Source: Candidatus Brocadia sp.
Lineage (GTDB): Bacteria; Planctomycetota; Brocadiia; Brocadiales; Brocadiaceae
Reading direction: 5' to 3'
Assembly (NCBI GenBank): GCA_021646415.1
Contig: SOEU01000002.1
Span: 248,001-312,000 of the forward strand
Length of the DNA: 64,000 bases
Part shown: positions 41,600 to 52,278 of the stretch, one piece after another
Numbering within the stretch: position 1 is the stretch's first letter
Layout of the letters: each line of letters opens with the position of its first letter
Notes under the pieces: generated by a model
The model's input: only the letters and a program-made list of their open reading frames with translations
The model's database searches: none
Told to the model about the DNA's origin: nothing
Made by a program: the position numbers and the translations under genes

Positions 41600-43834
41600 T
41601 TGAAAAAAACACAATTCCATTTTGCCGATCAGGTGGTTGAGGGGTTATTTATCGTGAAAGAACCATATGCCCATTCAGCTAACTCACAAGGTCAAAGACA
41701 CAGACTCGTTGACCATTTAAATGAGGTTGCCAGTCTGGCTAAAATATTTGCTGATAAATTTGGCGCTGGTGATCTTGCTTATTGGGCGGGTTTGTGGCAC
41801 GATGTGGGGAAATTCCACCCTGCCTTTCAGGAGTACTTGCTAAAGTGCGAGGGAGAACCGGAAAAGATACATCGGGGACCCGATCACAAAGGTGCTGGTG
41901 CATTCTTAGCACTAAAGCATTTGGAACCCTTAGTATTTCTCATAGCCGGGCATCATGGCGGTCTTCCAAATAGTGCAAATTTGAAGGCGGTCTGGTTACC
42001 TGAAAAATCCAATTCTTCACCTTCTCAAGAAGCTTTGAATATAGCAAAAAGTGAAGGGATACAAATTGTTCCACAATCAAGCCTTTTGCCACCTACCTTT
42101 GTAAAAACACCTCTTGATGGTGAATTTTTCATTCGAATGCTGTTTTCTGCTTTAGTAGACGCAGATTTTCTGGATACAGAATCTCATTTCAATCCAAAAA
42201 TTATCGATAAAAGAGGGGGCTATCCATCTCTTAATGAACTCTGGTGTCATTTTGAGGAAAATCAGAAGAAAATTACTGGTAAGTCTTTAGACCAACTCAA
42301 TATCATCCGTAACGAGGTTTACGAGAATTGCCTGGATGCTGCGGAACTCCCGCCTGGCTTTTTCAAATTGACAGTTCCAACCGGAGGCGGTAAGACACGC
42401 TCCAGTATGGCATTCGGACTTAAACATGCAATCAGGTATAGAATGGACAGGGTTATTGTTGCTATTCCATACACAAGTATTATCGAGCAAACTGCTGAGG
42501 TTTATCGTGAAATATTCGGCAAAGATGTGGTGTTGGAACATCATAGCGCCGTTACTCCTTCAGAAAATGAAGATGCGGTGGACGATGGGACATCATGGGC
42601 TCGACTTGCCGCTGAAAACTGGTATGCACCGATAGTTGTCACGACAACTGTCCAACTCTTTGAAAGCCTCTTTTCAAACAAAACCAGCCGTTGCCGTAAA
42701 CTTCACAATATCGTTAATAGTGTTATTATCCTTGATGAAGTACAGACCCTACCTACAGGGTTACTTACTCCAATACTTGATGCTCTCAGGCAGTTAGTGT
42801 CTTATTATAAAGTGACAGTAGTTTTTTGTACAGCCACACAACCTGCTCTCGAAAGCAGCCCATATCAGGAAGGGATAGACGGAATAAGGGAGATTGTTCC
42901 AGAACCTAAAAGGTCCTTTAGCATGCTGAAAAGGGTTGAGTATACATGGGTAAATAAAGATGAAAAATGGGATTGGGCAAGAGTTGCTACTGAAATGAGA
43001 AAAGTCACACAGTGCATGACAGTTGTAAATACAAAGAAGGATGCTATTTCTCTTTTGGACGCCCTTGATGATCCATCGGCCATTCATATTTCAACGTTAT
43101 TGTGTGGCGAACACAGGCGGGATGTGCTTAGGCAAGTTAGAAACCTGATAGCGGATGGTAAGCCCTGTCGTCTTGTCTCAACGCAAGTGGTAGAAGCGGG
43201 AGTCGACCTTGACTTTCCACTAGTGTTAAGAGCAGTTGGCCCCCTTGACAGAATTGTTCAGGCAGCAGGGCGTTGTAACAGGGAAGGAAAGCTGTCTGCT
43301 GGCAAAATGATAATTTTTAGTCCTGAGGATGGCGGTGTTCCTCCCGGTGACTATTGTACCGGGACGGATACTGCTATGAGCCTCTTAAATTATGATGATT
43401 TTGATTTCCATAATCCTTTACTTTATGAGGAATATTTTAAACGTCTTTATCAAGCAGTAAATTTGGATAAAGACAATATTCAGGAATTACGACAAACTTA
43501 TAATTATCGTGACGTTGATGCAAGATTTCAGATGATCAAAAAATTATCAATCTCTGTTATTGTTAAATATTATGGGACTGAAGGAAAAGATAGGGAAGTA
43601 GATAAACTTTTGCCATACCTTAAAAATATTCGAGGAAGATCACCAAGTATATTGCTCCGAAGACTTCAGCCATTTATAGTAAGTATCCCTGAGTATCTCA
43701 AAAATGAATACCAGAGAGATGGTCTGATAGTGGAAATAAAACCAGGACTCTGGGAATGGCTTAGCGTTTATGACAAAGTGAGGGGACTGGTTGTATCGGG
43801 CATAAATCCGGAAGATTTGGTGGTTACAAGTTAG
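41600..43834 (+). CDS. cas3: CRISPR-associated helicase/nuclease Cas3 (type I-C)
   Basis: Cas3 degrades DNA after Cascade recognition. The 744-residue protein has an N-terminal HD nuclease domain (GLWHDVGKFHPAFQ with His-Asp at about 67-68; GHHGG) and an SF2 helicase: Walker A TVPTGGGKTRSS, IAIPYTSIIEQ-like (VIVAIPYTSIIEQT), DEVQ box LDEVQTLP, CTATQP, STQVVEAGVDLDF and RIVQAAGRCNREG. HD and helicase are fused in the usual order. The start is TTG 41600 with no clear ribosome binding site. It heads the cas operon; about 230 bp, including a REP palindrome, separate it from cas5. Confidence 0.95.
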   Translation: MKKTQFHFADQVVEGLFIVKEPYAHSANSQGQRHRLVDHLNEVASLAKIFADKFGAGDLAYWAGLWHDVGKFHPAFQEYLLKCEGEPEKIHRGPDHKGAGAFLALKHLEPLVFLIAGHHGGLPNSANLKAVWLPEKSNSSPSQEALNIAKSEGIQIVPQSSLLPPTFVKTPLDGEFFIRMLFSALVDADFLDTESHFNPKIIDKRGGYPSLNELWCHFEENQKKITGKSLDQLNIIRNEVYENCLDAAELPPGFFKLTVPTGGGKTRSSMAFGLKHAIRYRMDRVIVAIPYTSIIEQTAEVYREIFGKDVVLEHHSAVTPSENEDAVDDGTSWARLAAENWYAPIVVTTTVQLFESLFSNKTSRCRKLHNIVNSVIILDEVQTLPTGLLTPILDALRQLVSYYKVTVVFCTATQPALESSPYQEGIDGIREIVPEPKRSFSMLKRVEYTWVNKDEKWDWARVATEMRKVTQCMTVVNTKKDAISLLDALDDPSAIHISTLLCGEHRRDVLRQVRNLIADGKPCRLVSTQVVEAGVDLDFPLVLRAVGPLDRIVQAAGRCNREGKLSAGKMIIFSPEDGGVPPGDYCTGTDTAMSLLNYDDFDFHNPLLYEEYFKRLYQAVNLDKDNIQELRQTYNYRDVDARFQMIKKLSISVIVKYYGTEGKDREVDKLLPYLKNIRGRSPSILLRRLQPFIVSIPEYLKNEYQRDGLIVEIKPGLWEWLSVYDKVRGLVVSGINPEDLVVTS

Positions 43835-43900
43835 ATGCTTCGACATTGTTCAAAACGACTTTTATCGGTACTTTATTGCCATTCTGAGGGAGTTGAGTGG

Positions 43901-43926
43901 GTTGGGTGAAGCGCAGCGCACCCAAC
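43901..43926. repeat. REP-like palindrome between cas3 and cas5
   Basis: GTTGGGTG and GCACCCAAC arms with an AAGCGCAGC spacer. It is related to 16699-16724. It may break the cas operon into two transcripts. Confidence 0.6.
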
Positions 43927-44064
43927 GAATATTTTTTTGCCAATAGCCAGAAAATGGCAATGATGGATTCGTTTTTGCTTAATCCATCCTACATGGTTTG
44001 AATTCGTGAATATACAAGTAAATTAAGATGTGAGTATCATTTATAATTCATGAAAGGAGGCGAT

Positions 44065-44730
44065 ATGCAAAAAGGGCCGCCATTAGAGGTGAAGGTCTGG
44101 GGAGAACTTGCCTGCTTTACTAGGCCGGAAATGAAAGCCGAGAGGGTAAGCTATCCTGTTATGACGCCATCAGCGGCGCGCGGCGTTCTGGAAGCTATTT
44201 TCTGGAAGCCGGAGTTCTCATGGCAGGTGCGAGAGATTCACGTGTTGAATCCAATACGGCATTTTTCTATTCTGCGTAACGAAGTGAACCACAAAGTAGT
44301 TGTTTCAACTGTAAAAGGCTGGGCGTCGGATGGATACGGGGGATACTTTTCAGACAATAACGAAAAAAACAGGGCACAGCGCCATACGCTGGCTCTCAGG
44401 GATGTGGCTTATATTATTAAGGCGGATGCAGTGTTGAAATCACATGCTACTGATCCGGATGCTAAATATCGTGATCAATTCAGACGTAGGGTAGCTAAAG
44501 GTCAATGTCACCATACACCTTATTTAGGATGCCGTGAGTTTACAGCCTCCTTTGGAGAACCTGAAGGCAGCGAAAAGCCTATTGAGCAAAGTGACGACTT
44601 GGGAAAAATGCTCTTTGATATGAAATATGAAGAGGGAAAATCAGGGCGCGGTACTCCAATCTTTTTCCATGCGAAGTTAAAAAATGGAATTTTAATTGTA
44701 CCTATCGATCTTTACCAGAAGGAGGAATAG
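44065..44730 (+). CDS. cas5c: Cas5c (Cas5d), type I-C crRNA-processing protein
   Basis: In type I-C systems this RAMP protein cuts pre-crRNA in place of Cas6 and caps the 5' handle. The 221-residue protein begins PPLEVKVWGELACFTRPEMKAERVSYPVMTPSAARGVLEAIFWKPEF, the typical Cas5d start. The later YLGCREFTASFGEPEG is also family-typical. The ATG at 44065 is preferred because AAAGGAGG (44053-44060) lies just before it; the ATG at 44050 contains that site. The stop overlaps the ribosome binding site of cas8c. Confidence 0.93.
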   Translation: MQKGPPLEVKVWGELACFTRPEMKAERVSYPVMTPSAARGVLEAIFWKPEFSWQVREIHVLNPIRHFSILRNEVNHKVVVSTVKGWASDGYGGYFSDNNEKNRAQRHTLALRDVAYIIKADAVLKSHATDPDAKYRDQFRRRVAKGQCHHTPYLGCREFTASFGEPEGSEKPIEQSDDLGKMLFDMKYEEGKSGRGTPIFFHAKLKNGILIVPIDLYQKEE

Positions 44731-44732
44731 CG

Positions 44733-46520
44733 ATGCTTTTGCAAAGACTCAAAGAATATTCTAAACGTATTCCTTCAACCCCTTCCATGTATGGGAAGAT
44801 GGTTATTAAATGGATAATTGACATTGATATGGATGGTCAATTACAAGGGATTATCCCTACTTCAGACGGAGAGAAAAAGAATGATAAAGGGAAGAGTTTT
44901 CTTGCTCCACATATTGGCAGGGCGTCAGGAATTAAGGCGAAACTATTAGCTGATAATGGTGAATATGTATTAGGTAAGGCACGCAAAGACTCCGACACTG
45001 CACGTGTTAAGGAATGTAATAGAGCTTTTGTTGAACTTATAAAAAAAGCTGCTGAGTGTACAAATGAATCCACAATCTACTCTATCTTAAAATTTTACGA
45101 ACATACGAATTGTGCGGAACTTATTTTGAAAGAAGACTTTGATCCAAGTCAAAATCTAACTTTCCGTATTAATGGTATATTACCCATAGACCTACCATCC
45201 ATCCAGAAATTCTGGTCTGGATACACAGGAGAAGAAACTAACAGTAAAGATGGTGATGTAAGGGGAAAGGATATCATGCAATGTCTTATTTGCGGTGAAG
45301 AAAAACCTGCCATAAGGCGATTGCCATTTAAGATTAAGCGAATACCAGGTGGTCAAACCGCTGGAACGGCTATGATTTCAGCCAATTCGCCCGCCTTCGA
45401 ATCTTACGGACTTGAAGAGTCTCTTATTGCTCCGACCTGCCAGGAATGTGGAGAAAGGTTTAGTAAAGCTGCAAACTCACTTTTGGAAGGAGAAAACACA
45501 CATATCACAGCAGGCAAACTGGTCTATATCTTCTGGACAAAAGAGGAAACAGGCTTCTCCTTTGCCTCCATCCTTTCCAAGCCAGAACCAGGAGAGGTGA
45601 AGATGCTTGTGAAATCCGTCTTTAGCGGTAAAAAGGCAGCGGTAGAAATAGATTCTACACCTTTCTACGCTACTGCATTTTCAGCCAGTGGCGCCCGTGT
45701 TGCAGTTAGAGACTGGTTAGAAACAACAGTGAGTAATGCCCAGGAAAATCTGGCACGTTGGTTTAAACTTCAGCAAATAGTGGATGTTTATACAGGAGAT
45801 GAGACTTTGCCGTCGCCTATTAAAGGCTACTTCGGAAAAGATAAAAAATGGATAAGTGGCATTATAGACGATTTAGCTCCAGAAGTAAAAAGGAGGCGTG
45901 ATATTAACGGCCTGTCTCCGAATATTTTCAAGGTACTGATTCATGCAGCGTTAAATGGTGGGGCGTTACCCATGTGGCTTTTATATCAGGCAGTAAGAAG
46001 AAACAGGGCTGAACAGAAGGTCACAATATCCCGTGCAGTCCTTATAAAAATGGTCTTACAGTCACAAAACAACAATTTTATAGAGGAGGATAAAATGGAA
46101 CAGATTGATTTGGAAAACCGCAATCCGGCATATCTTTGCGGTCGTCTGCTCGGTGTAATTGAGTCGGTTCAAATGGCCGCAATCCCTGGGGCAAAGGCTA
46201 CCGTTGTAGACCGTTTTTTTGGCACTGCATCGTCTGCGCCTGCATCAGTATTTGGAAGACTTTTGCGAGGCGCGCAGTTTCACCTCAGTAAGTTACGAAA
46301 AGAGAAACGTGGCACCTTTGAGGCACTTGAAAAGAAACTCGATGAGGTTCAATCAGGATTGAATTCATTTCCTAAGACATTGACTTTAGAAGATCAAGGG
46401 CGCTTTGCGCTTGGCTATTATCATCAGAGGGCTGCTGACAGGGCAGGAGCCATCGCCTACAAGCAGTCTCAACAAGAAGAGAAAAACAGAAAATTAGATA
46501 CTGAATCAAGTTCAGCATGA
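44733..46520 (+). CDS. cas8c: Cas8c (Csd1), type I-C Cascade large subunit
   Basis: Cas8c is the large subunit that recognises the PAM. The 595-residue protein has the Csd1 features: LLQRLKEYSKRIPSTPSMYGKMVIKWIIDID at the start, FRINGILPIDLPSIQKFWS, QCLICGEEKPAIRRLPFKIKRIPGGQTAGTAMISANSPAFESYGLEES, AVLIKMVLQ and the C-terminal YLCGRLLGVIESVQMAAIPGAKATVVDRFFGTASSAPASVFGRLLRGAQFHLSKL. A CLIC and CQEC pair (about 187 and 232) could form a zinc site. Ribosome binding site AAGGAGGAA precedes the ATG. A REP palindrome separates it from cas7. Confidence 0.93.
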   Translation: MLLQRLKEYSKRIPSTPSMYGKMVIKWIIDIDMDGQLQGIIPTSDGEKKNDKGKSFLAPHIGRASGIKAKLLADNGEYVLGKARKDSDTARVKECNRAFVELIKKAAECTNESTIYSILKFYEHTNCAELILKEDFDPSQNLTFRINGILPIDLPSIQKFWSGYTGEETNSKDGDVRGKDIMQCLICGEEKPAIRRLPFKIKRIPGGQTAGTAMISANSPAFESYGLEESLIAPTCQECGERFSKAANSLLEGENTHITAGKLVYIFWTKEETGFSFASILSKPEPGEVKMLVKSVFSGKKAAVEIDSTPFYATAFSASGARVAVRDWLETTVSNAQENLARWFKLQQIVDVYTGDETLPSPIKGYFGKDKKWISGIIDDLAPEVKRRRDINGLSPNIFKVLIHAALNGGALPMWLLYQAVRRNRAEQKVTISRAVLIKMVLQSQNNNFIEEDKMEQIDLENRNPAYLCGRLLGVIESVQMAAIPGAKATVVDRFFGTASSAPASVFGRLLRGAQFHLSKLRKEKRGTFEALEKKLDEVQSGLNSFPKTLTLEDQGRFALGYYHQRAADRAGAIAYKQSQQEEKNRKLDTESSSA

Positions 46521-46535
46521 CATTGATATTTTTAT

Positions 46536-46562
46536 TGTCATTCCGAACTTGTTTCGGAATCT
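46536..46562. repeat. REP-like palindrome between cas8c and cas7
   Basis: TGTCATTCCGAA and TTCGGAATCTC form a stem around CTTGT. It is of the same class as 7810-7848 and 63260-63324. Confidence 0.65.
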
Positions 46563-46600
46563 CGTAAGCATTTTAAACCACATTTTTAGGAGATACACAA

Positions 46601-47512
46601 ATGACCAATGCCATTTACAATGATGTGACAAAACGACACGATTTTGTTCTTCTGTTTGACGTAACTGACGGCAACCCTAATGGTGACCCAGACGCAGGGA
46701 ATCTTCCTCGGGTAGATCCTGAAACTATGCAGGGATTGGTAACTGATGTGTGTATTAAAAGAAAAGTTAGGAATTTTATAGATGTCACAAATGGCAATAA
46801 AGCTAATATGAAAATTTATGTGCAAAACAAAGGGATTTTGGCTAATGAGCAAAAACGTGCTTATGAAGCAATAAAAGCTGAACCCGGTGATTCTCCAAAT
46901 GAAGAAGCTAGGAAATGGATGTGCCAGAATTATTATGACGTAAGAATGTTCGGTGTCGTAATGACAACTGGTAAGACAAAAGATAGCAACAAGAAATGGA
47001 ATTGTGGCCAAGTTCGAGGGCCGCTACAACTTACTTTTGCACGTTCAATAGACCCAGTTATTCCTCTTGATCTTTCAATTACTCGTGTCGCTTTAACAAA
47101 TGCTGGTGATACTGGTATTGGTCAGGAAGATGACGAAATAGCTTCGTCATCACAAATGGGAAGAAAAGCATTGCTTCCATATGGCCTTTATCTAGGATAT
47201 GGTTTTTTTACACCTACATTTGCCAAAGACACCGGTGTATCGAATGAAGATTTGAAACTCTTCTGGTCGGCCCTTCAAAACATATGGGATATAGACCACT
47301 CTGCTAGCAGAGGGTTGATGGCATGTCGCGGGCTTTATATTTTTAGTCATAATAGTGAATTAGGTAATGCGTCTGCACACACTTTATTTGACAGGATAAA
47401 AGTAAAGCGTAATGATAACGCTGAATCAACGAGATGTTTTAGTGATTATAAAGTATCCATTAATGAAACCAATTTTCCTGAGGGTGTTACTCTTACAAAA
47501 TTAGTAGGGTAA
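46601..47512 (+). CDS. cas7c: Cas7c (Csd2), type I-C Cascade backbone
   Basis: Cas7 forms the crRNA-binding backbone of Cascade. The 303-residue protein has the Csd2 signatures RHDFVLLFDVTDGNPNGDPDAGNLPRVDPETMQGLVTDVCIKRKVRNFI, YDVRMFGVVMTTGKTK, CGQVRGPLQLTFARSIDPVIPLDLSITRVA and SSSQMGRKALLPYGLYLGYGFFTP. Length is normal. The ribosome binding site TTAGGAGA lies 8 nt before the ATG. Immediately after its stop lies the start of a broken cas4. Confidence 0.95.
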   Translation: MTNAIYNDVTKRHDFVLLFDVTDGNPNGDPDAGNLPRVDPETMQGLVTDVCIKRKVRNFIDVTNGNKANMKIYVQNKGILANEQKRAYEAIKAEPGDSPNEEARKWMCQNYYDVRMFGVVMTTGKTKDSNKKWNCGQVRGPLQLTFARSIDPVIPLDLSITRVALTNAGDTGIGQEDDEIASSSQMGRKALLPYGLYLGYGFFTPTFAKDTGVSNEDLKLFWSALQNIWDIDHSASRGLMACRGLYIFSHNSELGNASAHTLFDRIKVKRNDNAESTRCFSDYKVSINETNFPEGVTLTKLVG

Positions 47513-47518
47513 GTGAGC

Positions 47519-47628
47519 ATGGCAATACAGAATTACGAACCCATTATGGTCTCCGCCCTGGAGCATTACAGCTAATGTCTTGCCAGTGTGCCCTTATTTA
47601 CGTTTTGCATTTACGGAGTACTTTATAA
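47519..47628 (+). pseudogene. 5' remnant of an older cas4
   Basis: Six bases after cas7, an ATG opens MAIQNYEPIMVSALEHYS and stops at 47573-47575. In another frame CQCALIYVLHLRSTL follows and stops at 47628. Read together they give the Cas4 N-terminus, including most of the EHYSYCPRQCALI block that carries the first cluster Cys residues. The intact cas4 at 48274 has the same block as SSVEHYSYCPRQCALIH. Position and spacing are those of a normal type I-C cas4. The remainder of that gene is missing, with the four-helix-bundle gene starting 65 bp further on. Confidence 0.8.
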
Positions 47629-47693
47629 CAGAGAGCAAAAAGTATGGTTAGACCAATTGGGATTAATAATATAAAAACAAGAGGTAACACACT

Positions 47694-48284
47694 ATGACCG
47701 ATCAAAAAGAATCCCCGCAGCTTATCCCGCTGCACGGCGGGTATCGGGAGCTGCAGTCTTACCAGATGGCGGAGATTGTGTATGACGCCACGATAGTATT
47801 CTGCAACCGTTTCATTGATCGTCGGTCCCGTACCCATGACCAGATGGTGCAGGCGGCACGCAGCGGCAAACAGAACATCGCCGAAGGCAGCATGGCCTCG
47901 GGCACGTCCAAAAAGACCGAACTTAAGCTCATCGGCGTGGCACGGGCAAGCCTTGAAGAATTGCTCCTTGATTTTCAGGACTTTTTGAGGCAAAAGGGGC
48001 TGCCGCTTTGGGGAAAAGAGCATCCGAAAGCTAAAGAAATCAGAAGTCTCTGCTATCAGAAAAATAGGTCCTATATGACTTATAAGACCTATGTCGAGCA
48101 AAGCTCGCCGGAAGCTGCTGCAAACACCATGATCTGCCTGATTCACCAGACAAACTACCTGCTTGACCAACAGTTGCGGGCATTGGAAAAGGAGTTCCTG
48201 AAAAATGGTGGATTCACGGAAAGACTCTATCGTACACGATCACAGATGCGGAAAACAAAAGAACAAGACAGATATGACAAATAA
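47694..48284 (+). CDS. four-helix-bundle (S23/IVP-like) protein inside the cas operon
   Basis: The 196-residue protein belongs to the four-helix-bundle family related to 23S rRNA intervening-sequence proteins, in the longer suffix-domain form. Typical blocks are YRELQSYQMAEIVYDATIVFCNRF, DQMVQAARSGKQNIAEGSMASGTSKKTELKLIGVARASLEELLLDFQDFLRQKGLPLW and MICLIHQTNYLLDQQLRALEKEFLKNGGFTERLYR. The family is frequent in genomes but its function is unknown. It is not a usual cas gene. It has its own GAGGT ribosome binding site and overlaps the cas4 start by 11 nt, so it and cas4 are probably co-translated. Confidence 0.85.
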   Translation: MTDQKESPQLIPLHGGYRELQSYQMAEIVYDATIVFCNRFIDRRSRTHDQMVQAARSGKQNIAEGSMASGTSKKTELKLIGVARASLEELLLDFQDFLRQKGLPLWGKEHPKAKEIRSLCYQKNRSYMTYKTYVEQSSPEAAANTMICLIHQTNYLLDQQLRALEKEFLKNGGFTERLYRTRSQMRKTKEQDRYDK

Positions 48285-48903
48285 GACCTATAATGAAGAC
48301 GATTTAATCCAGCTCTCTTCAGTGGAACATTACAGCTACTGCCCGCGCCAGTGCGCACTCATCCACGTGGAGCAGACCTTTGATGAAAACTTGTATACCC
48401 TGCGCGGCAGAGCTGTGCATGAAACTGTTGATATAGAATCTTCTCATATGCTGGAAGGCGTACGATATGAAAGGTCGCTTCCTATCTGGTCAAAACGATT
48501 AAATCTTGTCGGGAAAGCAGACATGGTAGAATTTCATGGAAACGTTCCGTATCCTGTGGAATATAAATCGGGGAGACACAGGATCGGCCATCATGAAAGC
48601 CTGCAGCTTTGCGCACAGGCACTCTGCCTGGAGGAGATGCTTGGGGTGAAGGTGGAGAAAGGAGCCATCTTCTGGCATGCATCCAGAGAAAGAAAAGAGG
48701 TTGTTTTTACAGAGGACATGCGAAAACAGGTGGAAGAAGTTGCCGTCGCTACCCACAGGATGATTGCTGAAAGATACCTGCCACCACCAGTAAACGACAA
48801 GCGGTGCAGGGACTGTTCTCTCAAAGAATCGTGTTTGCCTGAGGTGATACACAATAAGACCAGACACCACAGTATAACGAAAAAGCTGTTTGTTGTGGAA
48901 TAA
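48274..48903 (+). CDS. cas4: Cas4 nuclease
   Basis: Cas4 is a 4Fe-4S exonuclease that selects PAM-bearing prespacers with Cas1-Cas2. The 209-residue protein has the N-terminal Cys motif YCPRQCALIH, RecB-type nuclease residues (GRAVHE, LVGKADMVEF, PVEYKSGR and ESLQLCAQALCLEEM) and C-terminal Cys CRDCSLKESC. The ATG at 48274 fits the family start (YNEDDLIQLSSVEHYSY); the frame is open upstream to 48205 inside the four-helix gene. A hairpin GGAATAAAC/GTTTATTCC lies after it (48926-48961), before cas1. Confidence 0.94.
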   Translation: MTNKTYNEDDLIQLSSVEHYSYCPRQCALIHVEQTFDENLYTLRGRAVHETVDIESSHMLEGVRYERSLPIWSKRLNLVGKADMVEFHGNVPYPVEYKSGRHRIGHHESLQLCAQALCLEEMLGVKVEKGAIFWHASRERKEVVFTEDMRKQVEEVAVATHRMIAERYLPPPVNDKRCRDCSLKESCLPEVIHNKTRHHSITKKLFVVE

Positions 48904-48925
48904 AAAAAATTCGTGGGGGAGGAGA

Positions 48926-48961
48926 GGAATAAACACACCCCTTAGTCCCCTGGTTTATTCC
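48926..48961 (+). repeat. hairpin between cas4 and cas1
   Basis: Perfect 9-bp arms GGAATAAAC (48926-48934) and GTTTATTCC (48953-48961) with an 18-nt C-rich loop. No T tract follows, so it is more likely an mRNA processing or stability element than a terminator. Confidence 0.55.
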
Positions 48962-49050
48962 AGAGAGGAAACAGCGTGATAATGTCTTGAATATTCTCCG
49001 TGTTTTCTGTGGTTGGTTTTTTATATCATAAATTCATTCAGGAATCTAAT

Positions 49051-50082
49051 ATGAAGCAGCTTCTGAATACACTTTATGTAATGACCCAGGGTGCTTACCT
49101 TACCTTGGACCATGAGACAGTAAAAGTGGAAGTTGAGGGGAAGACCCAGCTTCAGGTACCGCTCCATCATTTAGGGGCGATATTTACCATGGGAAATGTG
49201 ATGATGAGCCCGTTTCTTATGCATCGCTGCACTGAAAATGGCAAGGCTGTCGTCTTTCTCAATATGAATGGTCAGTTTCTTGCCAGGGTTGTCGGAAAAA
49301 CAACGGGAAATGTACTCCTCAGACAGGCACAGTATGTGGCAGCAAGTGATGCAAATAAGGCCGCCTCTATTGCAAAGAATATCGTAGCCGCAAAATTGCA
49401 GAATTCACGCCAAATACTTTTAAGGGGCGCCAGAGAGATAGAAAATACTGGGATAGAAGCGGGACTAAGACAGGCAGCGACATCCCTTTCTGATGCACTC
49501 ATCAATCTTAAGAAAAGTGGTACTATTGACGAGACCAGGGGACTTGAGGGCATATCTGCCAATGCCTATTTCCAGGTCTTTGATACGATGGTCAAGGAAA
49601 ATCGGGAAACCTTTATCATGAAAAGCCGTAACCGACGTCCGCCGAGAGATCCGATGAATGCGTTGCTATCGTTCATTTATACGCTCCTTCTCAATGATTG
49701 TGTATCTGCAGCTGAAGGGGTGGGACTCGACCCTCAGGTGGGTTTTCTGCATGCCATCAGACCGGGCAGACCCTCTCTGGGACTGGACTTGATGGAGGAA
49801 TTACGTTCTATACTGGCAGACAGACTTGCCCTTACCCTTATAAACCTGAAACAGATTACAGAGAAGGATTTTGAGGAGAGAGAAGGGGGTGCAGTTTATC
49901 TCAATGAAGGGGGGAGAAAGGCCGTTGTCGTTGCATATCAGAAACGAAAGCAGGATGAATTCACCCATCCATTATTGGAGGAGAAAGTACCCTTTGGCTT
50001 GATTCCTCATGTTCAGGCGCGTCTCCTGGCAAGGCACTTACGCGGAGATATGGAAGAATATATTCCCGTTTTGTATTCGTAA
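49051..50082 (+). CDS. cas1: CRISPR integrase Cas1 (type I-C)
   Basis: Cas1 is the integrase that inserts new spacers. The 343-residue protein starts MKQLLNTLYVMTQGAYLTLD, typical of the type I-C branch. It has the catalytic-region blocks MNALLSFIYTLLLNDCVSAAEGVGLDPQVGFLHAIRPGRPSLGLDLMEELRSILADRLALTLIN, with the conserved Glu, His and Asp. The frame is open to GTG 49000, but that part lies in an AT-rich leader, and TTCAGGA lies just before the ATG at 49051. cas2 follows after 11 bp. Confidence 0.96.
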   Translation: MKQLLNTLYVMTQGAYLTLDHETVKVEVEGKTQLQVPLHHLGAIFTMGNVMMSPFLMHRCTENGKAVVFLNMNGQFLARVVGKTTGNVLLRQAQYVAASDANKAASIAKNIVAAKLQNSRQILLRGAREIENTGIEAGLRQAATSLSDALINLKKSGTIDETRGLEGISANAYFQVFDTMVKENRETFIMKSRNRRPPRDPMNALLSFIYTLLLNDCVSAAEGVGLDPQVGFLHAIRPGRPSLGLDLMEELRSILADRLALTLINLKQITEKDFEEREGGAVYLNEGGRKAVVVAYQKRKQDEFTHPLLEEKVPFGLIPHVQARLLARHLRGDMEEYIPVLYS

Positions 50083-50093
50083 AGGAGGAAGAG

Positions 50094-50384
50094 ATGTGGG
50101 TTATAGTCACGTATGACGTTACGACAGAAACAAAGGAAGGGCGCAGGAGGCTTCGCAGGGTTGCCCAGGCATGCAAGAACTTTGGTCAAAGGGTACAGAA
50201 GTCGGTCTTTGAATGTTCTGTGGATCAGGCGCAATTTGAGACGTTAAGACGCAATCTATTGAAGGAGATTGATGTAAAAGAAGACAGCCTTAGATTCTAT
50301 AGGCTGCAGGAACCAAGAGATGCACATGTAGAAGAACATGGCGTTAACAGGACGGTATTCTTTGACGAACCTTTAATTATTTAA
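50094..50384 (+). CDS. cas2: CRISPR-associated protein Cas2
   Basis: Cas2 forms the Cas1-Cas2 spacer integration complex. The 96-residue ferredoxin-fold protein starts MWVIVTYDVTTETKEGRRRLRRVAQACKNFGQRVQKSVFECSVDQAQFETL, the standard type I-C Cas2, with the conserved Asp in TYDV. AAAGGAGGAAGAG precedes the ATG. The stop lies about 180 bp before the first CRISPR repeat. Confidence 0.97.
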   Translation: MWVIVTYDVTTETKEGRRRLRRVAQACKNFGQRVQKSVFECSVDQAQFETLRRNLLKEIDVKEDSLRFYRLQEPRDAHVEEHGVNRTVFFDEPLII

Positions 50385-50562
50385 CGCGAACCTGTTGCGA
50401 TATTGAAAACCCCGGAGGGTTCGCAGTTTATGTATCATAATAAAATCAAACCTGTTAGAGGAGGTGACCTATTGATAAACGATGTCTTGATAGAGTAAAA
50501 ATTGATCGTTCGCAGATGGAAATACATAAATATATAAACTGTGAGACGTTCCATGTGCGACC
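50385..50562 (+). promoter_or_regulatory. CRISPR leader
   Basis: AT-rich, non-coding 178 bp between cas2 and the first repeat. It contains a GCGAACC/GGTTCGC inverted repeat (50386-50392 and 50418-50424). Position next to cas1-cas2, together with the decayed repeat at the other end of the array, marks it as the leader side where new spacers enter. A promoter for the array is expected here but was not resolved. Confidence 0.75.
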
Positions 50563-51505
50563 GTAGCATCCAGCCTTCGGGCTGGATGAGGATTGAAACA
50601 CAGATCACCCCTCCTTCCACAAAATCCACCAGGCGTAGCATCCAGCCTTCGGGCTGGATGAGGATTGAAACTTTGATAGATGATTTAACCATTGCGGAAT
50701 TCGGGTAGCATCCAGCCTTCGGGCTGGATGAGGATTGAAACTCGAATGACCTGATAGGGCCGAAGGCATTGGCAAATGTAGCATCCAGCCTTCGGGCTGG
50801 ATGAGGATTGAAACTTAAATCCGTGGGTAAGGTGTCCACCGTGGGACGTAGCATCCAGCCTTCGGGCTGGATGAGGATTGAAACTTATAGGTCGGGCACG
50901 GAGGAAACAACAGATTTTGTAGCATCCAGCCTTCGGGCTGGATGAGGATTGAAACGTTTTCGTGGAAAGCAGGTCTCAGATACGGAGTAAGTAGCATCCA
51001 GCCTTCGGGCTGGATGAGGATTGAAACGCGAGGACATACAAGCAACAGGCACGGCTTATAACGTAGCATCCAGCCTTCGGGCTGGATGAGGATTGAAACA
51101 CGTACCCGCCAGCCACCACGCTCCCGCCAGCCGCGTAGCATCCAGCCTTCGGGCTGGATGAGGATTGAAACTTTTTTCACAACAAATTCAGGGTAATATT
51201 CAGTTCGTAGCATCCAGCCTTCGGGCTGGATGAGGATTGAAACGTCGTTCTGGCAAAGGTAATGGCTAATGAAACATGTAGCATCCAGCCTTCGGGCTGG
51301 ATGAGGATTGAAACCAACAAAGAAAAAATTATAGACCTAATCACTGGCGTAGCATCCAGCCTTCGGGCTGGATGAGGATTGAAACAGATTGTCCGAAATG
51401 TGAAAAGCTGAAAGAGAAAGTAGCATCCAGCCTTCGGGCTGGATGAGGATTGAAACTTGATGCCCCAAATTGCCCCAATAGTCGTTAATACGTGCATTCA
51501 GCCTC
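50563..51505 (+). CRISPR. CRISPR array: 13 full 37-bp repeats plus a decayed end repeat
   Basis: The repeat is 37 bp, GTAGCATCCAGCCTTCGGGC followed by TGGATGAGGATTGAAAC. It contains a perfect 9-bp stem (CATCCAGCC/GGCTGGATG) with a TTCG loop, and the ATTGAAAC 3' end common to types I-B, I-C and III. Full repeats start at 50563, 50635, 50705, 50778, 50848, 50919, 50991, 51063, 51135, 51207, 51278, 51349 and 51420. All appear identical. Spacers are 33-36 bp. A truncated, mutated repeat (GTGCATTCAGCCTC) follows the thirteenth spacer at 51492. Longer than the usual 32-bp type I-C repeat. Confidence 0.98.
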
Positions 51506-51642
51506 AAAATTAATTTTGTATCTACGACATAGAGAATTGCGAGAAAACTTTTCCAAGTTTTTATTGTATCTATCGTTCCATTTTGCTATATACATTCAGA
51601 AATAAATTATAAAATAAATTGAGTTTTATGAAAGGTGTTTGA

Positions 51643-52278
51643 ATGCATATCCCTGACGGATTTCTGGACACGAAGACGTGGATTGGGATGGGCGGTATTT
51701 CGTGTTTATTTATTGGTATTGCAGTTCGAAAGGCAAATAAGAAAATATCAGAGAAACACATCCCCTTATTGGGCGTCATGGCAGCCTTTGTCTTTGCGGC
51801 TCAAATGTTCAATTTTCCCGTAGGCGGCGGGACGAGCGGTCATTTCATGGGTGCTACCCTGATCGCTATTTTGCTCGGTCCATGGGCATCTGTACTTATC
51901 ATGACTACGGTGCTTACCACCCAGTGTCTTGTCTTTCAGGACGGCGGACTTACTGCTTTGGGAGCGAATATATTCAACATGGGTATTATCGGGGGATTTT
52001 TAGGATACTACATCCATAATATTTTCCAATATTTTGCTCAGGGCAAAAAAGGTATTTTTATCGGCGGTTTTACGGCGGCATGGTGCTCTCTTGTCCTGTC
52101 AGCAGTCTGTTGTGCCACTGAATTAAGTATTTCCGGCACGATGCCCCTGAAGATCGTTGTGCCGGCTATGGCAGGTATTCATGCCATGATTGGCATTGGA
52201 GAGGGGCTTATTACCGTTGCTGCATTAAGCCTGCTTTCGCGGGTAAGACCGGATCTATTGCAATTGCCGAAATTATAG
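51643..52278 (+). CDS. cbiM: CbiM-type metal (cobalt/nickel) ECF transporter permease
   Basis: CbiM is the substrate-binding membrane part of cobalt or nickel ECF transporters. The 211-residue protein starts MHIPDGFLDTKTW, where the His2 region binds the metal. It continues with the family blocks VFAAQMFNFPVGGGTSGHFMGATLIAILLGPWAS, TTQCLVFQDGGLTALGANIFNMG and ATELSISGTMPLKIVVPAMAGIHAMIGIGEGLITV. No CbiQ or CbiO genes follow; only a PDGLE protein does. The ion cannot be told from sequence. The 140 bp upstream hold no recognised riboswitch. Confidence 0.94.
   Translation: MHIPDGFLDTKTWIGMGGISCLFIGIAVRKANKKISEKHIPLLGVMAAFVFAAQMFNFPVGGGTSGHFMGATLIAILLGPWASVLIMTTVLTTQCLVFQDGGLTALGANIFNMGIIGGFLGYYIHNIFQYFAQGKKGIFIGGFTAAWCSLVLSAVCCATELSISGTMPLKIVVPAMAGIHAMIGIGEGLITVAALSLLSRVRPDLLQLPKL

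Follow-up and report, generated by a model that had tools for sequence, protein, structure and literature searches.

An apparently mobile four-helix-bundle gene embedded at the seam between effector and adaptation genes of CRISPR operons

The closest known kind is that of genes embedded within other immune systems, reportedly described by Payne et al. in 2024 (bioRxiv 10.1101/2024.01.29.577857), and of the PADLOC PDC candidates. Like the genes considered here, these are single or paired genes inside defence operons, and two entries of the PDC catalogue, RhuM (PDC-S05) and DUF1016 (PDC-S02), both occur at the seam of cas operons studied here; the repeated use of the effector/adaptation seam with duplicated cas4 heads is what the present analysis adds to that catalogue. 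In restriction-modification (R-M) systems, embedded defence genes include DarTG2 between hsdS and hsdR (PMC12255303). For cas loci, Zhang, Doak and Ye (2014; PMC3936711) reported 18 23S_rRNA_IVP-family genes, often with Cas4 and/or Cas6, which belong to the same broad four-helix family as the four helix bundle suffix gene (4HB) described below; the passage on these genes in that paper mentions neither a preference for the seam nor mobility, scars of cas4 heads, 9-nt repeats or further genes using the site. The Coxiella IVS is an S23/IVP insert in 23S rRNA with GACAGAT heptamers beside its ORF (PMC4990558). S23/IVP elements resemble 4HB in being mobile inserts that encode a four-helix S23 protein, with short tandem repeats next to the ORF; however, they lie within rRNA and are cut out of the transcript, whereas 4HB sits between protein genes and differs from them in its suffix domain, its 9-nt repeats and its strong conservation. 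A search of open-access journal papers turned up no account of the seam pattern. What appears to be new is the specificity for the seam, the mobility and the scars, while 4HB-family genes near cas4 have been known since 2014.

The window, which is the whole 64,000-nt stretch of DNA analysed here, carries a complete type I-C operon (cas3-cas5c-cas8c-cas7c-cas4-cas1c-cas2) with an array of 13 repeats, in a Brocadiaceae-like planctomycete; cas3 starts at 41600, cas5 at 44050 and cas8c at 44733, and the features around the seam are listed in Table 1. From 5' to 3' the seam consists of a decayed cas4 head, a 40-nt remnant of a DUF1016-type start, 4HB and the intact cas4, and the GC content, about 0.39 in cas7, rises to about 0.50 in 4HB. 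4HB lies between co-oriented defence genes, cas7 and cas4, both undamaged, as is characteristic of an embedded gene. No Rfam match was obtained in 46400-51700, so the reading of the seam as an RNA element is unsupported and was rejected.

Table 1. Features at and around the cas7/cas4 seam of the window.
Feature	Position	Strand	Basis
Type I-C cas7 (csd2), last effector gene upstream of the seam	46601..47512	+	TIGR02589, E 2.9e-96
Decayed cas4 head: EPIMVSALEHYS, stop, frameshift, CQCALIYV	47520..47604	+	blastn to the L141 cas4 start and others; reading frames
Putative remnant of a DUF1016/YhcG-type gene (its leader and opening codons)	47603..47642	+	82.5% to L141 8833-8872 across 40 nt; E 1e-4
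Four helix bundle suffix protein (4HB), probable mobile embedded gene, 196 aa	47694..48284	+	TIGR04258, TIGR02436; AF2; nearest PDB 2GSC
9-nt-period repeat inside the 4HB ORF: TAGGTCCTA TATGACTTA TAAGACCTA	48065..48091	+	pattern search of own genome; family-wide lag-9 signal
Point where 4HB of the relative L145 ends in TAG; CAA in the window	48264..48266	+	sequence comparison
Intact cas4, body of the Brocadiaceae I-C lineage	48274..48903	+	TIGR00372, E 2.5e-39; tree; catalytic and Cys motifs
New cas4 head MTNKTYNEDDLIQLSS, first codons formed by the 9-nt repeat following 4HB	48274..48324	+	distribution of the MT.[KR]TY head
cas1 (type I-C), same adaptation-module lineage as cas4	49051..50082	+	TIGR03640, E 4.9e-153; 85-91% to Brocadiaceae relatives
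cas2	50094..50384	+	TIGR01573

A sequence-only reading of this DNA had pointed out a cas4 start directly after cas7 that is frameshifted into CQCALIYV, and a four-helix-bundle gene that overlaps the intact cas4 by 11 nt; both are borne out. MAIQNYEPIMVSALEHYS is encoded at 47520-47573 with a TAA stop behind it, and the following frame carries CQCALIYV at 47581-47604. By blastn the remnant matches the cas4 start of the family relative L141 with 84% identity over 70 nt (E 2e-14), and comparable matches were obtained to L142, L144/L146 and L143. Because the match at protein level is weak by itself (30 bits versus 26 for the best shuffled control), the assignment rests on the DNA match, which indicates more than chance similarity and identifies the remnant as the ancestral start of the intact cas4's own lineage. 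The stretch behind it, which the sequence-only reading had passed over, resembles the part of L141 where a DUF1016 gene begins directly after a cas4 remnant; going by these 40 nt, a DUF1016-type gene may formerly have been inserted at the seam of the window.

The motifs Cys23/27, Cys178/181/187, GKAD and VEYK are present in the intact cas4, which groups in the cas4 tree with Brocadiaceae cas4 genes both with and without 4HB. Its head reads NEDDLIQLSS after the repeat-encoded MTNKTY and is common to L145, which shares both this head and 4HB with the window at 82% DNA identity; the ancestral head [E/D]PIMVSALEHYSYC is kept in the sister operons L141, L142, L143 and L146. Heads of the form MT.[KR]TY are found in L213, L220, L224 and L234, all with 4HB; the 58 survey cas4 genes that lack 4HB have no such head. 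Since the remnant matches the ancestral head and the head of the intact cas4 differs from it, this cas4 seems to have exchanged its own head for one that is carried along with 4HB. The new part appears to be limited to the first ~16 codons, the remnant and the intact body belonging to a single Brocadiaceae lineage, and the head may have been replaced either in place or through a module swap from an L145-like donor. The 11-nt overlap is a local feature, for the TAG that ends 4HB in L145 is CAA in the window, which lengthens the gene.

The C-terminal suffix domain of 4HB (TIGR04258, residues 139-187) is recognised with E 1.4e-23 and 82.5 bits, above the cut-off of 40, and the N-terminal half as the TIGR02436 bundle with E 1.2e-7 and 32 bits, above the cut-off of 24. 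Against Pfam 23S_rRNA_IVP (PF05635) the protein scores 29 bits, below the gathering threshold of 33.8, and is thus related to that family and not a formal member of it. An R-S-x3-N-x2-E-G core is conserved in an alignment of 87 4HB relatives; a search by sequence for solved relatives returned none, and none of the PADLOC-DB models matched. The single-chain AF2 model (mean pLDDT 89.6) has the four-helix bundle fold of S23, and its best structural match is Xcc0516 (PDB 2GSC; Foldseek probability 1.00, TM-score 0.86 by target length, TMq 0.52, E 0.03), a homopentamer of four-helix bundles that is 17% identical to 4HB and has no suffix domain. The 4HB protein probably forms an S23-type four-helix ring. 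Short repeats of period 9 nt typify the family, with a lag-9 identity of 0.39 in the variable region of the ORF; at the 3' end it is 0.33 and upstream 0.31, and other lags give about 0.25. By pattern search the 9-nt array is confined to the 4HB gene in its own genome, and a genome-wide repeat family was rejected on that account.

Of the best 80 loci, those closest to the query among 84,980 species genomes, about half lie in CRISPR operons, and these operons belong to many phyla. As this set is biased by the query, an unbiased survey was added, in which 345 genomes of another phylum were searched for I-C cas7 and the DNA downstream of it was read at 74 loci, 69 of them with cas4. Inserts of more than 450 nt were found at the cas7/cas4 junction in 23 of 69 cases, versus 4 of 67 between cas4 and cas1 (Fisher p 7e-5) and 1 of 62 between cas1 and cas2 (p 7e-7). 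4HB makes up 11 of these 23 inserts, one being a fragment (L205), the others including RhuM, Fic, RhuM-Fic, BRO-N and HEAT-repeat proteins. The recurrence of a four-helix gene before cas4, for which a search of genomes had been recommended, is therefore established, at 11 of the 69 survey I-C operons and at 37 loci with 4HB between cas7 and cas4 over all loci, in which 4HB also lies four times between cas4 and cas1; several phyla are represented, and in all loci read no 4HB was found between effector genes. In the type V-A operon L013 the gene stands between cas12a (RuvC/NUC domains) and cas4, and it also lies ahead of I-E cas1 (L049, L060 and L062) and ahead of I-G cas4-cas1 (L065). Outside CRISPR loci, members of the family occur beside hsdR, repair genes and ordinary genes, among the last an argininosuccinate synthase identified by its N-terminal sequence.

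Compared with loci of other phyla, 4HB of the window has a pS of 0.50-0.60 in many pairs, whereas cas4 and cas1 reach 0.75-0.9 and are saturated, which argues that 4HB moved independently of cas4; between the window and its close relative L146 the synonymous difference is alike across the three genes (0.49, 0.50 and 0.59). The dN of 4HB is about 0.1, a level of non-synonymous change that points to purifying selection on the protein. Mapped on the cas4 tree, 4HB switches between present and absent 21 times, and well-supported branches force at least 10 of these changes; on the 4HB tree, in which few branches are strongly supported, the copies in cas context cluster (8 changes versus 29 in shuffles). 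From these comparisons 4HB appears to have jumped many times across bacterial phyla into the effector/adaptation seam of CRISPR operons. Carriage by phages or plasmids is unsupported: relatives of 4HB numbered 0 among 50,697 phage records and one in 2.9 million viral contigs, and the plasmid collection gave one divergent match, on a Prevotella record.

Remnants of a cas4 head precede the insert at 7 distinct junctions (the window, L034=L213, L035, L051, L141, L143 and L205), with 4HB, DUF1016, RhuM or Fic behind them; the majority of 4HB insertions have no remnant. In L205 a 65-nt stretch of cas4 head, 97% identical to the head of the locus's own cas4, flanks the Fic insert. The scars end at varying points, between about codon 22 and codon 60, and inspection by eye revealed no insertion motif in common; site-specific transposition with a fixed target duplication was rejected for these reasons. 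The scars are consistent with recombination that is anchored in the cas4 head and loose at the left end, and not with a target duplication of fixed length; we infer this route from the scars, as neither a donor circle nor an intermediate was seen.

We consider it likely that 4HB is a horizontally mobile and selectively maintained single gene embedded in defence operons, at a seam that acts as a recombination hotspot. Its landing place in CRISPR operons is the seam between effector and adaptation genes, mostly just upstream of cas4; a donor segment comprising the insert and the start of cas4 would join the recipient cas4 through homology in the conserved head, by single crossover or homology-anchored illegitimate joining, so that the recipient's former cas4 start would stay behind upstream as a scar and the surviving cas4 would receive a new head. 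At the seam of the window a DUF1016-type gene would have been inserted first, and 4HB would later have taken its place. The job of 4HB is most likely that of an accessory, a putative cargo with a defence or regulatory role that is expressed together with the module, rather than that of a dedicated Cas4 partner, because most I-C operons lack it, hsdR is also among its neighbours and the seam is common to unrelated genes. Defence cargo does not fit the whole family, since many copies outside Brocadiaceae lie in ordinary contexts, and conservation is too high for a normal neutral passenger, so that some function in or near adaptation may be involved.

A working adaptation accessory, that is, a putative ring-forming nucleic-acid-binding helper of Cas4-Cas1-Cas2 selected beside cas4 and translationally coupled to it, would agree with the repeated position of 4HB just ahead of the adaptation module in types I-C, I-G, I-E and V-A, with its low dN and mostly intact copies, with reading frames that nearly overlap cas4 and with the clustering of cas-context copies on the tree. 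We nevertheless hold it to be unlikely: 4HB is missing from 58 of the 69 I-C operons with cas4, an intact copy in L107 stands beside a cas4 without part of its head, the copy in L049 precedes an I-E cas1 with only a cas4 stub, decayed copies accompany an intact cas4 (L142 and L205), members of the family turn up next to hsdR, in repair operons and at other places, and the seam is used by unrelated genes as well. The coupling of 4HB and cas4 raised by the sequence-only reading stands as recurrent placement of the genes, coupling to the Cas4 protein being putative: 4HB is also located ahead of I-E cas1 where no cas4 is adjacent, in the interval from cas4 to cas1, next to hsdR and outside defence contexts.

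The same reading had supposed that a 4HB-cas4 pair entered the operon and displaced the original cas4. Import of that pair, or of the whole 4HB-cas4-cas1-cas2 module, as a unit is rather unlikely. Swaps of modules at the seam do occur, given one adaptation lineage on at least 5 other effector modules in Brocadiaceae, and L145 has both 4HB and the new head in common with the window; on the other hand, the cas4 remnant is the ancestral start of that same cas4 lineage, and the same cas4 body is found without 4HB in L141 and with 4HB elsewhere in L143. Arrival by insertion or recombination can be retained, whereas exchange for a whole foreign cas4 was rejected as stated: the remnant match and the cas4 tree, which places this cas4 with its own Brocadiaceae relatives, both speak against it. 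Of the two outcomes that the reading had named as refuting it, this placement in the tree did occur, whereas a lack of recurrence of the pair did not. A swap within the lineage is possible. An assembly or annotation artefact, or chance similarity, might be suspected in genomes that are mostly metagenome bins, but the arrangement recurs in many independent assemblies with graded decay, single-contig genomes among them (G248; L047 with a contig of 2.6 Mb), which renders such an origin extremely improbable.

As a tentative extension of the mobile-gene reading, 4HB-suffix genes could be minimal mobile units favouring operon seams, whose in-frame terminal 9-nt repeats and captured head of the next gene preserve translation on landing, the downstream start being rebuilt from the element's repeats; if this were true, 4HB-suffix genes would have spread to CRISPR and restriction operons of different phyla with no help from phages, plasmids or a neighbouring recombinase. 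The vague observation of a four-helix gene near cas4 is turned into a testable rule, namely that the effector/adaptation seam is an insertion hotspot for unrelated small genes, at which adaptation modules are swapped as well and where cas4-head scars give the date and orientation of events. 4HB itself is a well-conserved candidate accessory or defence protein of many phyla that is not in PADLOC-DB.

The Brocadiaceae relatives have one adaptation lineage (cas4 80-83%, cas1 85-91% and cas2 about 91-93%) and varied effectors. L141 contains a cas4 remnant, a DUF1016 gene and an intact cas4, without 4HB; L142 has a decayed 4HB; L143 has a cas4 remnant, RhuM and cas4, followed by 4HB ahead of cas1; and L146 has 4HB and then a cas4 with the ancestral head. 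All 17 copies of 4HB in the window's own family are in defence loci (13 CRISPR, 3 type I R-M/hsdR and 1 ZorD/DpdE-like helicase). One cas4-cas1-cas2 module is joined to at least 6 different effector modules (L141-L146 and window 41600-50384), those of L141 and L143 being only distantly related to I-C, and its presence on these modules argues for frequent swapping at the cas7/cas4 seam.

Several other loci are of unusual composition. In L049 (5125-7650) a BRO-N-like gene, so called by sequence resemblance, 4HB and an I-C cas4 stub precede an I-E cas1, which makes the locus a chimera of two CRISPR types. cas4 is flanked by two 4HB genes, or by one and a fragment, in L041/L150 and L040/L148, and the two copies in L041 belong to different branches of the 4HB tree. 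In L179 and L212 the seam insert codes for one protein in which an N-terminal RhuM domain is joined to a C-terminal Fic domain. In L163, L171 and L173 the seam is occupied by a HEAT-repeat protein (identified by Pfam in L163 and by similarity in L171 and L173) with a C-terminal CxRCG...CxxC segment resembling a zinc ribbon.
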